From the NCBI GenBank assembly GCA_945929965.1, contig CAMEOT010000001.1:1-64000 (forward strand): DNA of 64,000 bases. Reading direction: 5' to 3'. Position numbers and translations under genes: made by a program. Below are positions 25,372 to 37,685 of this stretch, piece by piece (the stretch's first letter is position 1; every line of letters starts with the position of its first letter). The stretch comes from an uncultured Lachnospiraceae bacterium. GTDB lineage: Bacteria > Bacillota > Clostridia > Lachnospirales > Lachnospiraceae. The notes under the pieces were generated by a model. That model worked only from the letters and a program-made list of their open reading frames with translations. It did no database searches and was not told the DNA's origin.

Positions 25372-27579
25372 TCACATGAGCTCAGTGTCTTCCATTCTCT
25401 CTTCCACAAAATGGTTCAGCTTCACAAATGGAATCCGGATCACCAGTCCGATGAGCAGCCCTTCCAGCATGAACAGAATCAACTTCGCCAGGGCTGCCAT
25501 ATAGGCGGTTCCATACATTCCTGCCAGTGCCTCACGCATTGCCGTGATCGCATAGGGGAATGGGAAGAAGATGTATATCTTTTGATAAATATCGGGAAGC
25601 AGTTCAATAGGGAACGTTCCGCTGGATCCCGCGATCTGCAGCACCATAACAATTACGCAGACAGCCTTACCCACATCCCCGAATGCCAACGTCAGGGAAT
25701 AGATCAGCAGGGAAAATGCAGTGGCGGTAAAACTTGCCGCCAGGAAAAACAGTCCCGGTTCCACAATATTTACTTTCAGCAGCCACAGATCTCCCGCCAC
25801 AATAATAGCAGCCTGGATCTGCGCCAGCAGTAAGAACAGAAGGTATCTGCCGAAATACAGCTGATAACTCTGTACGTTTTTAAGATTTTTCGGTGATGCC
25901 TTTACCTTCACCAGTGCCACCAAAATCGTAGATCCTACCCAGATCGCCAACGTAGAATAGAACGGTGTCATGGCAGAACCGTAGGTGGCTACCGGATACA
26001 TGGCTATGGTCTCCATCGTCACAGGAGATGCGAAATATGCTCCAAGGCTGTCAGGATCTCCTCCCAGGAAACGTACCAGAATATCCATCATTTCCTCTTC
26101 GGAGGCACCTTCCAGCTGTTCTGTCAGATCTGTCAGTTTTTGACTGATACCGTCTACTACGCCCTGGATCTGTCCCAGGCTCTCGCTGGTACCGTCTACC
26201 GCATCGCCGACGCCTTCCATAACTACACCTATATTCTGTACGGTACTGCTCAATGTATTTACCAGGTTGGTCACCTGATTCAGCGAATCTGACATATTTG
26301 TCAGGGCTTTCTGCATCTGGGGCACCAGATTGTTTTTATAGATGCCCTGCATATTACTCACGGAATTCTCACAGCTGTCAATGACATTCTTTAAATTATT
26401 CATGGCATTGTTGACATTGACCTTTGCTTTCTCTGCCGCCTGTTCATCGGTGGATTCCAGCACACTGCCTATGACTGTATTCATCATATCCAGTTCTTTC
26501 TGCATAGCCTTCAGCGCCTCGATGGCAGCATCCGTCGCTGCCGTATTGCCGCTTCCGCTACCGGTAGAAGCATTTCCGCCGGATACACTTCCCTGCACAC
26601 GCTGTTCAATCAGCGCTGCCAGCAGATTGTTGACCTGTCCGTTCAGGGTGTTGGTATCCCTTGCCACTTTATTCAGATCCTTCGTCATCTGTGCCGTATC
26701 GTCTGCGAGCTTGCTCTGATCCAGAATCTTTTTCATATCCTCCAGCGAAGTCTGTATGGTACTCATGGAGGTATCCACATTCGTGCTGAAATTCGACAGC
26801 GTATCTCTGGTGGATGACAGATTCTGACTGCTCTGGTTCAGGCTTGCCGTCGTTGCATCCAACTTCTTCTGCATTACGGGAATCTCATAATTCACATGGG
26901 TGATCGCCGCTTCCAGTCTGTCATTCCCCGCCCGGAAAGTATCGATCATCGTACTGTATTCCTTCAGGTTGTCATTCAGTTCTTCCAGATCGGCACAAAA
27001 TTCCTCCACATAGCTGTCTCCCTGCATCTGATCCGATACGGAATTACCCTCTTCGAAAATCGTGGTAGCTGCCACTTTGATAAAAGTCTCGTTAATAGTA
27101 TTCTGCAACGTACCGGCTACCGTATCTGTGATCTTGGTAGCAATAGCGTTGCTCTTCTGATTCTGGTAATAAATCAGTGACGGATTCTCAAAATCGTCGG
27201 AGAATACATTGTACATACTATATGTAAATTTATCCGTGATCACGATGGCGGCATAATATTTCCCCGCTTCCACGCCTTCCTGCGCTTCTTCCTCAGTATC
27301 TAAAAAGATCCATTTCACACTGGTGTTAGAATGTAGATTCTCCAACACGGATTCTCCCATGTTCACCACAGAGCCGTCCTTTCGCGTGTAATCCTTATCC
27401 AGAGACACCACCGCTACGGGGATTCCACCGGTATTGGCATAGGGATCCCAGTTGGCGAAAATATTAAACCATGCATACAGCGACGGTATCACGCACAGCC
27501 CGATGATGATGACCAGTGCAAAAGGCTGTTTCACTAGCTTTTTCAGATCTCCTGCGAAAATTTTCCAAATGTTTTTCAT
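25372..27579 (-). CDS. YhgE/Pip family membrane protein (second copy)
   Basis: Same architecture as 22617-24749; IPSLYAWFNIFANWDPYANTGG, SSGTFPIELLPDIYQKIYIFFPFPYAITAM. Confidence 0.9.
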   Translation of the reverse strand: MKNIWKIFAGDLKKLVKQPFALVIIIGLCVIPSLYAWFNIFANWDPYANTGGIPVAVVSLDKDYTRKDGSVVNMGESVLENLHSNTSVKWIFLDTEEEAQEGVEAGKYYAAIVITDKFTYSMYNVFSDDFENPSLIYYQNQKSNAIATKITDTVAGTLQNTINETFIKVAATTIFEEGNSVSDQMQGDSYVEEFCADLEELNDNLKEYSTMIDTFRAGNDRLEAAITHVNYEIPVMQKKLDATTASLNQSSQNLSSTRDTLSNFSTNVDTSMSTIQTSLEDMKKILDQSKLADDTAQMTKDLNKVARDTNTLNGQVNNLLAALIEQRVQGSVSGGNASTGSGSGNTAATDAAIEALKAMQKELDMMNTVIGSVLESTDEQAAEKAKVNVNNAMNNLKNVIDSCENSVSNMQGIYKNNLVPQMQKALTNMSDSLNQVTNLVNTLSSTVQNIGVVMEGVGDAVDGTSESLGQIQGVVDGISQKLTDLTEQLEGASEEEMMDILVRFLGGDPDSLGAYFASPVTMETIAMYPVATYGSAMTPFYSTLAIWVGSTILVALVKVKASPKNLKNVQSYQLYFGRYLLFLLLAQIQAAIIVAGDLWLLKVNIVEPGLFFLAASFTATAFSLLIYSLTLAFGDVGKAVCVIVMVLQIAGSSGTFPIELLPDIYQKIYIFFPFPYAITAMREALAGMYGTAYMAALAKLILFMLEGLLIGLVIRIPFVKLNHFVEERMEDTELM

Positions 27580-29204
27580 GCGATTTCTATCGACTCCTCA
27601 TCTGTATCCGTTCTATGTAGCTTCTCCTGCCCCTGTCCGGCTTCGCATATCCCCAGCAGTAGAAAAAAAAGTGGAGCATTCAGTACCTGCTGAAAACTGA
27701 TCAGAGAATGCATTCCGTAAGTAAAAAGCAGCATATTTGTCATGAAGTTTCCGCAATATTTTCGAAATGCGGTAAAAAATACAGCTGCATAAGCCACCAC
27801 CCCAAGTACTCCCATATTGATCAGTGTCGTAAGCCATTCATTATGAGCATTCGTAAAAATCGAGCCGGCAAAATAGCCTTTATCGAACAGTACCGTACCT
27901 CCGGGCAACACTTGTCCCAAATAGCCTGCAAAGCAATCCGGTCCGGCCCCCAACAACTTCTGTCTGAGATCTCCCTGGCAGAATCCCTGCCATGCCATCT
28001 GCCATAATCTTCCACGGCGATTACCCCATTCCGCGAAATTACTGCCCTGCTGTTTCAAAATATACCATATGACCGTACCTACAGCCAATACCAGACTGCC
28101 GTACAGCACTCCGACCCGTAACATCCTCTTTTTCTTATCCGGGAGAACATGATGCATCCCGCAAAATAACAGGCACACCGCTGCAAGCAAAAGCCATCCC
28201 TGCCCGGCAGCCAGCCGCTTGGCAATACCGTCCTGCAACAGGATGTCAAAGGTTCCCTGGGATTGCATCCCCTTTCCCCACAGTAACATTCCCACACAGG
28301 CGCCGGTCAGCAGGAAAAGCAGGGCTTCCCACAGCTTCGTTTTCTTCCGGCTACTCCAAAAGCACATCCACAGTGCCACACTTGCCACCATCACACCGCC
28401 GTCACTTCCCTGCAAAAACAGTAATATAACCACAAGAGTATTGCTGACTCCAAGCAACATCGACCTTCCTCTTCGCTCTTCTTCCACCGCCTGCAAAAAA
28501 AGTGCCAGTGATAAAGGAAACATCACACTGTAATACCCACTGAGCCAGTTATTATTCCCCAGTGTAGTGAGCATATGTGTATATTCCCAGTCTCCCACGA
28601 TATAACCCTTCAACAATCCCAATGGATCATAACCCAGTTTTTGGAGCAATCCTATGAGTGCCACTGTGACAGACGCTGTTTCTCCCAGATATAAAATACG
28701 GCTGCATTGTCCGCTGTACTTCGCTGCCAGCAGAAATCCGCCCACCATCAGGCAGATTGTGACAGCTCCCATGTACCATTCCTTCTCTCCCGTCCACGCA
28801 GTACTTCCATAAGGACTGCAGAGTGCAGAGACCACAGCGCAGGCGCCGTACAGGCAGACCGCTGTCACTACGATATGCTCCCTGCACCATACGATCATTT
28901 TTTCCCCGGTTTTTCTTATATACATACCAATATACATACCGAAACTAGCGCAGTTTTCCATCCGACAGCATTGTTCTATCCGTCTGTGTTTTTCCATCAG
29001 GTAGCTTTTTACCACAGCGATTATCTGTACCACCAGACAAATCCCTATACAGATCAAAGAGATATTGCGATATAAATAATATTTGCTATCACCCAATTTG
29101 TAATATCCATTCCCGGGAATATAGTACAGCGGCAATACTACCAAAATGGCAGCCATATAGATCTGACATACGATTTTCAGAAATTCCTCTTTCCGCTTCT
29201 CCAT
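27576..29204 (-). CDS. O-antigen ligase/polymerase-like membrane protein
   Basis: Many TM segments; FTNAHNEWLTTLINMGVLGVVAY resembles the Wzy/WaaL H-N-x-(Y/W)L motif. Confidence 0.75.
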   Translation of the reverse strand: MEKRKEEFLKIVCQIYMAAILVVLPLYYIPGNGYYKLGDSKYYLYRNISLICIGICLVVQIIAVVKSYLMEKHRRIEQCCRMENCASFGMYIGMYIRKTGEKMIVWCREHIVVTAVCLYGACAVVSALCSPYGSTAWTGEKEWYMGAVTICLMVGGFLLAAKYSGQCSRILYLGETASVTVALIGLLQKLGYDPLGLLKGYIVGDWEYTHMLTTLGNNNWLSGYYSVMFPLSLALFLQAVEEERRGRSMLLGVSNTLVVILLFLQGSDGGVMVASVALWMCFWSSRKKTKLWEALLFLLTGACVGMLLWGKGMQSQGTFDILLQDGIAKRLAAGQGWLLLAAVCLLFCGMHHVLPDKKKRMLRVGVLYGSLVLAVGTVIWYILKQQGSNFAEWGNRRGRLWQMAWQGFCQGDLRQKLLGAGPDCFAGYLGQVLPGGTVLFDKGYFAGSIFTNAHNEWLTTLINMGVLGVVAYAAVFFTAFRKYCGNFMTNMLLFTYGMHSLISFQQVLNAPLFFLLLGICEAGQGQEKLHRTDTDEESIEIA

Positions 29205-29322
29205 CCCCAGTAGGCTCCTTTGTATCACAAACTGCGTAGCTACTTGAATTGTAAGCGTTTCTCCCCCTTCTGTCAAACCGTTTACTCTTTACAAAATTGT
29301 GAAATTGTATATTAAATTGAGA

Positions 29323-29480
29323 GTTACGAGCCATGCAAAGTCAAAACAGAAACAGCGATCTGGGAGCTTGCTCACAAGTCGCTGTTTTTGTTTTTGACTT
29401 TATACGGCGACAGCCGTCAATGAAATAAATGTGGAGCGCTCTTTGCGACACATTTATGAATTGAGTGCATGGCTCGTAAC
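29323..29480. repeat. Nested inverted-repeat element (long hairpin)
   Basis: GTTACGAGCCATGCA...TGCATGGCTCGTAAC outer arms; inner AGTCAAAA-CAGAAACAGCGAT...TCGCTGTTTTTGTTTTTGACT. Confidence 0.85.
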
Positions 29481-29556
29481 GTAGGGTTGCCGTAGACCCC
29501 ACGAACGCCCGCGGCGAACGGAACATCACACCTTAATGTCGCGTCTCCAGGTGTGA

Positions 29557-29687
29557 ATTTTCTACGAAAAGTGATATAGCGGTTCTAATCCGTACGGGCA
29601 CGGCTCCAGTTGCCATCCATGGCAACGTCCGCCTGTCGCGAACGTCCTGTTCGCTCCACCCTGTCTTTCAGCACTTTTCAAGAAAAT
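29557..29687 (+). repeat. Left copy of structured inverted element flanking a tandem repeat
   Basis: ATTTTCTACGAAAAGTG...GTTGCCATCCATGGCAAC...GCGAACGTCCTGTTCGC...CACTTTTCAAGAAAAT; matches reverse complement of 30162-30296. Confidence 0.75.
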
Positions 29688-29796
29688 ATCAACACCCTCC
29701 GACAGACATCGCGGCATGACATTCCGTCCGCCGTGGGCGTTCTGTGTTTTGAAAATCCCATGAAAAAATATTAAGCCTATCTCATGTTACTGGTTT

Positions 29797-30085
29797 CTGT
29801 ATTCCTCCAAAGTCATTCACATACTTAATTCTTGTTTTCAAATTTTATACATGTGTTTTCTAAAGCGATTTACATACCTATTTTCCATTTTAGCCTATTG
29901 CGCATGTGTTTTCCCGGTTATCATACATGCCGGATCATTATTTTTTGCTTTAAGGCATGTATTTTCCGACTTGTTACACATATTTAATTTTGATTTTTGA
30001 ATTATTCGCATGTATTTCCTACTTTTTTTGTACATACTAAATCCTTGTTTTTAACTTCTGCACATGTATTCTCAAATGCTCTGCC
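29797..30085. repeat. Degenerate 53-bp tandem repeat, five full units plus a partial
   Basis: Units start CATAC/CATGC/CATAT at 29820, 29873, 29926, 29979, 30033; each has CATGT(G/A)TT 30 bp in. Confidence 0.85.
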
Positions 30086-30161
30086 TAAATAATTGGGATG
30101 TTTTTCATAACCCAGCAGAAAAGGACTGCTCCCCCGGCGTAGATGCGGCGGAGACTGTGAG

Positions 30162-30296
30162 ATTTTCTTGGAAAGTGGTTGAACCGCAGGGGCAATGCGA
30201 ACACGATGTTCGCGTTAGCCGATAAGTGCCATGGATGGCAACGTAAAGGCGGCCCCGTCATGATGAGAAGCACCTGGCCACTTTCCTTTAGAAAAT
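30162..30296 (-). repeat. Right (inverted) copy of structured element flanking the tandem repeat
   Basis: Reverse complement reads ATTTTCTAAAGGAAAGTGG...GTTGCCATCCATGGCA...GCGAACATCGTGTTCGC...CCACTTTCCAAGAAAAT. Confidence 0.75.
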
Positions 30297-30408
30297 CCAC
30301 AGTTGTAGCTAGCATCCGAGTCCGGGGCGGGCAGCCCATTCTGCGTGGATTTTAGAACAACTATTTCACTAACTTTCAAGTTAGTTTGGTGTAAAAACTC
30401 TAAAAACA

Positions 30409-30462
30409 ATGAATTCCGTACAAAAAAATTCCCAAATCCGGAATTTTTGTACGGAATTTCTT
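30409..30462 (-). terminator. Large inverted repeat, possible terminator of the heat-shock operon
   Basis: GAATTCCGTACAAAAAAATTCC-CAAATCC-GGAATTTTTGTACGGAATTTC. Confidence 0.5.
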
Positions 30463-30612
30463 CATTTTGCACGCTCAGCGAAAATAACGGCTTTTTGCAT
30501 GGCAAAATCTCATATTTTTGTATTTTTTTAGTAAAAAATAGGATTTTAAATACAGAGCTCTCCGCAATGAGCACGCTATTCATAAGATTGTCAGCAAAAG
30601 GCGCAGCCAATC

Positions 30613-37214: not shown

Positions 37215-37685
37215 TTATATGTAGAAGCTTCCGGTGGTCTCTTTGTTCATTACATAGTAAACCATGTTCTCTTCGGGTTTTACATATAATTCTACGCTGG
37301 TCAGATCAGCTGCCTTCTGCTTCAGATCGTATTTCCATACATCCTTTGCAATCTTCAGCAGATCTTCCTGAGAATAGGACTTGCCGCCGAACTGAACACT
37401 GATCTCGCTCTTTAACTCTGCCTTTTTTGCTGCGGGTTTCTTAGCGGGTGCTTTCTTAGCGGTTTCCTTTTTTGCTGTCTCTTTCTTAGCTGCGGGCTTT
37501 TTAACCTCTGCCTTTACAGGTGCTTTTACTTCGGCCTTTGCTACAGGTGCCTTCTCAGCTTCCTTCGCAGCGGTCTTGGTTTCTGTCTTAACTGGAGTTG
37601 TCGGTGCTGCTTTCTTCACTTCTGCCTTAGGCGCTTCCACTTTCGCTGCTGCTACTGGTGCTACAGTTTTCTTAACTATTGCCAT
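37215..37685 (-). CDS. DUF6465-like protein with Lys/Ala/Pro-rich (histone H1-like) N-terminus
   Basis: KKPAAKKETAKKETAKKAPAKKPAAKKAE tract then folded C-terminal domain. Confidence 0.75.
   Translation of the reverse strand: MAIVKKTVAPVAAAKVEAPKAEVKKAAPTTPVKTETKTAAKEAEKAPVAKAEVKAPVKAEVKKPAAKKETAKKETAKKAPAKKPAAKKAELKSEISVQFGGKSYSQEDLLKIAKDVWKYDLKQKAADLTSVELYVKPEENMVYYVMNKETTGSFYI

Follow-up and report, generated by a model that had tools for sequence, protein, structure and literature searches.

A non-coding locus beside dnaJ in a Lachnospiraceae genome is probably a copy of a palindromic mosaic repeat family

Organization of the locus between the Wzy-like gene and dnaJ

What occupies the 1.3 kb that separates a Wzy-like ORF from dnaJ in the uncultured Lachnospiraceae genome analyzed here (G000; 3.04 Mb, 62 contigs, 99.9% complete)? 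The window, a stretch of 64,000 nucleotides, had been predicted from its letters to hold at this position no convincing ORF, and a pair of inverted structured blocks around a 53-bp tandem array. As predicted, the ORF listing gives only short mechanical ORFs in this interval. The location of the block was also right, although its limits were drawn too narrowly: repeat-derived DNA spans 29313-30612, and the two hairpins run about 40 bp further outward than described, with full limits of ~29502-29744 and ~30114-30345. A third hairpin at 29331-29472, absent from that description, resembles Clostridiales-1 RNA below threshold. Our main reading, to which we give a probability of roughly 0.6, is that 29313-30612 belongs, as one copy, to a family of non-autonomous palindromic mosaic repeats in Lachnospiraceae, similar to BIME/REP elements and to MITEs. 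The features of the locus are as follows.

27576-29276, minus strand: Wzy-like ORF, bordering the locus
29313-30383: complete mosaic element of 1071 bp (1.07 kb), bounded by TIR-like ends
29313-29326, plus strand: left TIR-like end, TAAATTGAGAGTTA (end pattern)
29327-29480, plus strand: C1 module, a long hairpin (CGAGCCATGC...GCATGGCTCG) resembling Clostridiales-1 RNA
29502-29744, minus strand: A module, full-length TwoAYGGAY hairpin with extended outer stem, in which GAACGCCCGCGG... and ...CCGTGGGCGTTC pair
29542-29704, minus strand: RF01731 TwoAYGGAY core, copy A (94.6 bits, E 2.7e-15)
29798-30076: degenerate tandem array, period 53 bp, ~5 copies (relaxed TRF)
30114-30345, plus strand: B module, full-length TwoAYGGAY hairpin with extended, paired outer stem
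30146-30311, plus strand: RF01731 TwoAYGGAY core, copy B (90.7 bits, E 2.1e-14), loop 1 ACACGATGT
30370-30383, minus strand: right TIR-like end, TAACTTGAAAGTTA (end pattern)
30384-30612: E module (TTTGGTGTAAA...AATTCCGTAC...), part of a neighboring element and reaching to the dnaJ stop codon
30613-31788, minus strand: dnaJ, bordering the locus

The window element reads end, C1, A, array, B, end (29313-30383) and is followed by the E module up to dnaJ. There is no stop codon at its left end, and the adjoining E module finishes at the dnaJ stop. By blastn within G000, the C1-module stretch recurs with 100% identity at C9:67978-68198 and with 98% within contig C44, and copies of the B module with 95-96% identity lie on contigs C33 and C55. 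The unit formed by A, the array and B recurs inverted at C11:70479-71273 of the same genome. The E module (30384-30612) shows 82-84% identity to modules within four elements (L127, L128, L129 and L139) of a relative with a complete genome, Lachnospiraceae bacterium GAM79 (AP018536.1; G006).

The inverted hairpins are TwoAYGGAY modules with extended stems

Both cores match positions 1-168 of the TwoAYGGAY model (Rfam RF01731) in full, with 94.6 and 90.7 bits against a gathering score of 43 (cmscan). The matches lie on opposite strands, with hairpins A (minus) and B (plus) facing outward and flanking the A+T-rich array, and blastn aligns the two blocks as inverted copies with 71% identity, which confirms the inverted pair of structured blocks. 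Because both blocks score far above the RF01731 threshold, the hairpins do not belong to an unknown class of RNA, and the earlier view that no known class could be recognized fails for them. Rfam does not account for the block as a whole: RF01731 covers neither the mosaic with its TIR-like ends nor the array, and the stem extensions and the placement at stop codons also lie outside it. TwoAYGGAY was found in 2010 by comparative genomics and was listed as probably RNA and probably not cis-regulatory (PMC2864571); covariation studies have lengthened an annotated helix (PMC7657543; PMC11701678). TwoAYGGAY has been described as a stand-alone motif, whereas here it forms one module inside a mosaic repeat with TIR-like ends.

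The Rfam model ends inside the stem, which continues for ~40 more base pairs in these copies. In almost all copies, the 30 bases to the left of the Rfam core pair with the 30 bases to its right; beyond ~45-60 bases, pairing fades in most. When 37 TwoAYGGAY copies with mutually dissimilar flanks were chosen, true left-right duplexes averaged -46.1 kcal/mol vs. -14.6 kcal/mol for mispaired flanks, and 36 of the 37 fell under the 5th percentile of the mispaired flanks. Since dissimilar flanks still pair within each copy, the sequence of the outer stem is free to vary while its pairing is kept, which bears out the earlier suggestion that structure is strongly constrained.

The loops (CAYGGATG) are the most conserved part of TwoAYGGAY copies across divergent genomes. 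Loop 2 is retained in both window copies; loop 1 reads ACAGGACGT in A and ACACGATGT, without GGA, in B. One G of loop 1 is mostly lost in the G000 and GAM79 copies, and the mean number of GGA loops per copy is 1.1 in G000, against 2 in most other genomes. The C1 hairpin (29331-29472) fits the whole Clostridiales-1 model (RF01699) in outline, but its 34.8 bits are under the gathering score of 48, and other C1-type copies score 29.5-30.4 bits.

TwoAYGGAY also occurs outside any TIR element, at one locus common to both species (L004, C1:133503-133667 in G000; L125 in GAM79), where the two species differ by paired A-U to G-C changes in the outer stem. Five other Lachnospiraceae genomes (G010, G034, G045, G049 and G062) carry it as dispersed repeats of 160-330 bp with different ends (L195-L234), for example GTAACAGTTCAGCC in G049 and G062; short tandem arrays of other kinds adjoin some of these, for instance one of 27 bp x 11 at L217. 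A pattern match in Sporolactobacillus (L253) proved on checking not to be a TwoAYGGAY.

Strand signals and a possible role in CsrA binding

On the Rfam strand, the ratio of G-U to A-C stem mismatches is 92:32 in G000 and 68:20 in GAM79, the direction that selection on an RNA strand would give. The asymmetry is gone or reversed when the other genomes are pooled (144:187), and the better-folding strand varies from genome to genome. Because the strand signals are mixed and copies from one genome cannot be counted as independent, we do not call the selected molecule RNA or DNA.

The G-U excess in G000 and GAM79 is one of several observations that would fit a different reading, in which each hairpin is a CsrA-titrating sRNA gene like CsrB/RsmZ, multiplied in the genome, the surrounding repeat being incidental. 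CAYGGATG-type loops resemble known CsrA targets, and their conservation across divergent genomes is in line with such a role. RF01731 belongs to Rfam clan CL00106, CsrA is found in 18 of the 20 TwoAYGGAY genomes, with three CsrA-domain genes in G000, and CsrA binding was proposed some time after the motif was discovered (PMC4333381). CsrA is, however, equally common in genomes without TwoAYGGAY (76/98), and GGA has gone from loop 1 in most copies of the two species that show the strand asymmetry. Promoter-like sites are moreover depleted in the elements (15 vs. 25.2 expected), and none was found in the window block. Together with the loss or reversal of the asymmetry in other genomes, this makes the sRNA reading rather unlikely in our judgment. 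The three CsrA-domain genes of G000 (C4:135059, C1:264908 and C48:10181) comprise one typical gene and two that are longer and more divergent.

Period of the tandem-array cores

Within 29750-30110 the self-match at lag 53 is 0.471, above the largest self-match at any lag (0.430) in 1000 first-order Markov resamplings. Relaxed TRF gives a period of 53 x 5.2 at ~29798-30076, and a default TRF run reported no 53-bp array in the window locus. The array is thus real, though degenerate. Given the RF01731 matches and an array that beats the resamplings, the original prediction described the locus correctly, and the class of its hairpins is a known one.

Arrays inside the G000 and GAM79 elements have periods of 51, 52 or 53 bp throughout, and their units form at least three families without detectable mutual similarity. 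The cores of L001 and L055 show no 51-53-bp period, and the sample of arrays is small. As ~52.5 bp corresponds to five turns of B-DNA, the period may, in this small sample, reflect DNA phasing. Elsewhere in the window, a Lys/Ala/Pro-rich ORF (37215-37685, minus strand) contains a 45-bp tandem repeat at 37407-37515.

A family of elements with shared ends

Comparing copies side by side uncovered shared inverted ends, TAA(A/C)TTGA(G/A)AGTTA, with 52 exact matches in G000 vs. 1 for the reversed control. The exact pattern has 11 matches in GAM79 and does not rise above background in the remaining 116 genomes. Most GAM79 ends have their own letters, TAA(A/C)TGGAAAGTTAG, and 28 pairs of related ends were found there, one pairing being doubtful. 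Multiple genomic copies, which the original prediction had named as a supporting sign, are present: G000 holds 16 TwoAYGGAY copies, and blast with the window block as query gives 73 matches there, self-match counted. Complete elements measure 421-1220 bp (median 520, n=36) and hold no transposase. Between like ends lie varying hairpin modules (C1, A, B, D and E) and cores, so that the copies are mosaics, patchworks of long hairpins round a core that is often a 51-53-bp array. No published description of this TIR-bounded mosaic arrangement was found in the literature searched, and a family of patchwork repeats that directly follows genes in certain gut bacteria is apparently undescribed.

Many G000 contigs stop 40-64 bases within an element (for example C5:42-55, C6:42-55, C44:40-53 and C21:51-64). 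The repeats themselves thus interrupt the assembly, and more copies must exist than were counted. Four GenBank "Bacteriophage sp." records also match elements of this family. MT838359.1, MT839589.1 and MT837314.1 (L266-L268) are unannotated UNVERIFIED scaffolds holding such elements, with long ORFs of ABC transporter, ClpX-like and MATE-like type; carriage by phage was rejected, as these three, the scaffolds examined out of the four that match, look like bacterial chromosome fragments. The plasmid sequences searched gave no match to the elements.

Placement at gene ends and comparison with GAM79

The terminal TAA of the elements is the exact in-frame stop for 19 of 45 distinct ends in G000, counting open frames of at least 100 codons, and every other offset occurs at most twice. 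The corresponding count in GAM79, for frames of at least 90 codons and with one of the 28 pairings doubtful, is 25/56, and four GAM79 elements have both ends at the stops of convergent genes. Across the wider genome set, 20 TwoAYGGAY copies lie between convergent and 8 between divergent genes. The Rfam strand is the reading-in strand in 23/54 copies, so there is no preferred orientation. With this count and no conserved neighbor, a cis-regulatory element or 3'-UTR regulator of fixed orientation (the Rfam type is cis-regulatory) was rejected. Fold stability tracking the transcribed strand was likewise discarded (28/54 only), as was a single conserved host locus, since neighbors differ among genomes and G000 and GAM79 share only the one locus outside the elements mentioned above.

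Sites are largely shared between the two species while their content is not. Among the 38 G000 flanks with a GAM79 counterpart, 31 adjoin an element there and 7 do not, and in most cases the first module beside the shared flank differs; the wzy-dnaJ junction of GAM79 carries a D module only. A strain from the human gut carries another element at one site: on its contig, the DNA flanking the element is 96% and 94% identical to the ends of two G000 contigs, and the module at either end of the element is a different one. Because most sites are common to both species, recent transposition is less evident than turnover of content. The flanks T03/T04 and T20/T21, each joined by an element in G000, lie apart in GAM79, which suggests, from the sequence comparison, recombination between element copies.

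The shared sites could also be explained by immobile 3'-end structures (terminators or mRNA stabilizers) that are vertically inherited and homogenized in each species by gene conversion, the apparent insertions being losses elsewhere. The 31/38 common sites, the species-specific end letters and the excess of convergent over divergent gene pairs (20:8) would all agree with this. However, several element-free GAM79 sites (T14, T26, T31 and T40) have kept the position of the stop codon, in T31 as TGA, a pattern not easily taken for a loss. The end pattern is at background in the 116 other relatives, orientation shows no bias toward the genes reading in, and terminator-like sites in the elements are few (3 vs. 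1.7 expected). We therefore regard immobile structures as unlikely and retain the mobile mosaic repeat as our preferred reading.

Mobility and likeness to known repeat systems

Among the classes proposed for the block by the original prediction, a non-autonomous mobile element fits best, with TIR-like ends and mosaic copies free of transposase. MITEs, which include Correia, RUP and ERIC, are short, non-coding elements with TIR-like ends and many copies. The elements described here are likewise short, non-coding and multicopy with terminal inverted repeats, and the TA inside their ends would fit a TA target. They differ from MITEs in that their interior is modular and exchanged and no parent transposase was found.

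The likeness to BIME/REP elements lies in palindromic units arranged as mosaics, in extragenic positions near 3' ends and between convergent or co-directional genes. The units are, however, 5-10 times longer (150-250 bp rather than 20-40 bp) and the ends TIR-like. Mobilization by a Y1 (RAYT) transposase would account for the palindromes, the mosaic arrangement and the placement at 3' ends, and the termini of GTAG REPs have been reported to supply TAG stops (PMC3733652). Y1_Tnp (PF01797) had no match in G000, in spite of its 99.9% completeness, nor in G010, G034 or G045, and this contradicts RAYT mobilization unless the enzyme was lost recently; we hold it to be highly improbable. IS630-type DDE_3 had no match in G000 either, and current IS630-type mobilization there was rejected; no transposase lies between the paired ends examined in the complete GAM79 genome.

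Mycobacterial MIRU are similar in outline, being intergenic repeats of ~53 bp that overlap the stop codons of flanking genes; they are not known to have long branched hairpins such as those of the present elements.

For the preferred mosaic repeat, we propose that new copies would arise by insertion at TA/TAA sites through a putative trans-acting enzyme, entering first at the 3' ends of genes. Existing copies would later trade modules and ends through ectopic recombination or gene conversion. Such recombination may sometimes rearrange the chromosome. A TA duplication could lie within the TAA found at each end, and insertion at the TA of a TAA would preserve a stop codon; simple TA insertion does not explain convergent gene pairs with both stops inside the ends. 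Once transcribed, the hairpins may provide structure at 3' ends and, through the conserved CAYGGATG loops, a binding site for a protein, for which CsrA has been proposed in the literature.

A broader proposal, which we put forward tentatively and with less than even confidence, is that these elements form a new mosaic class, combining insertion at TAA stops, kept sites, modules swapped between strains, 51-53-bp cores and Rfam RNAs as pieces. TwoAYGGAY, and possibly Clostridiales-1, would then be pieces of elements rather than stand-alone RNAs. Palindrome correction at the DNA level would maintain stem pairing as much as selection on RNA, and cores unrelated in sequence would be held at 51-53 bp, about five turns of DNA.

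Implications

The element family accounts for many of the assembly breaks in G000 and points to recombination hot spots. There are sites at which neighboring gene ends hold their position and the intervening non-coding element has been exchanged for another, so gene conversion and re-insertion can be tested against each other in strain collections. An orphan Rfam family is now placed inside a repeat element and its structure extended, and this setting yields testable predictions on the spread of TwoAYGGAY.
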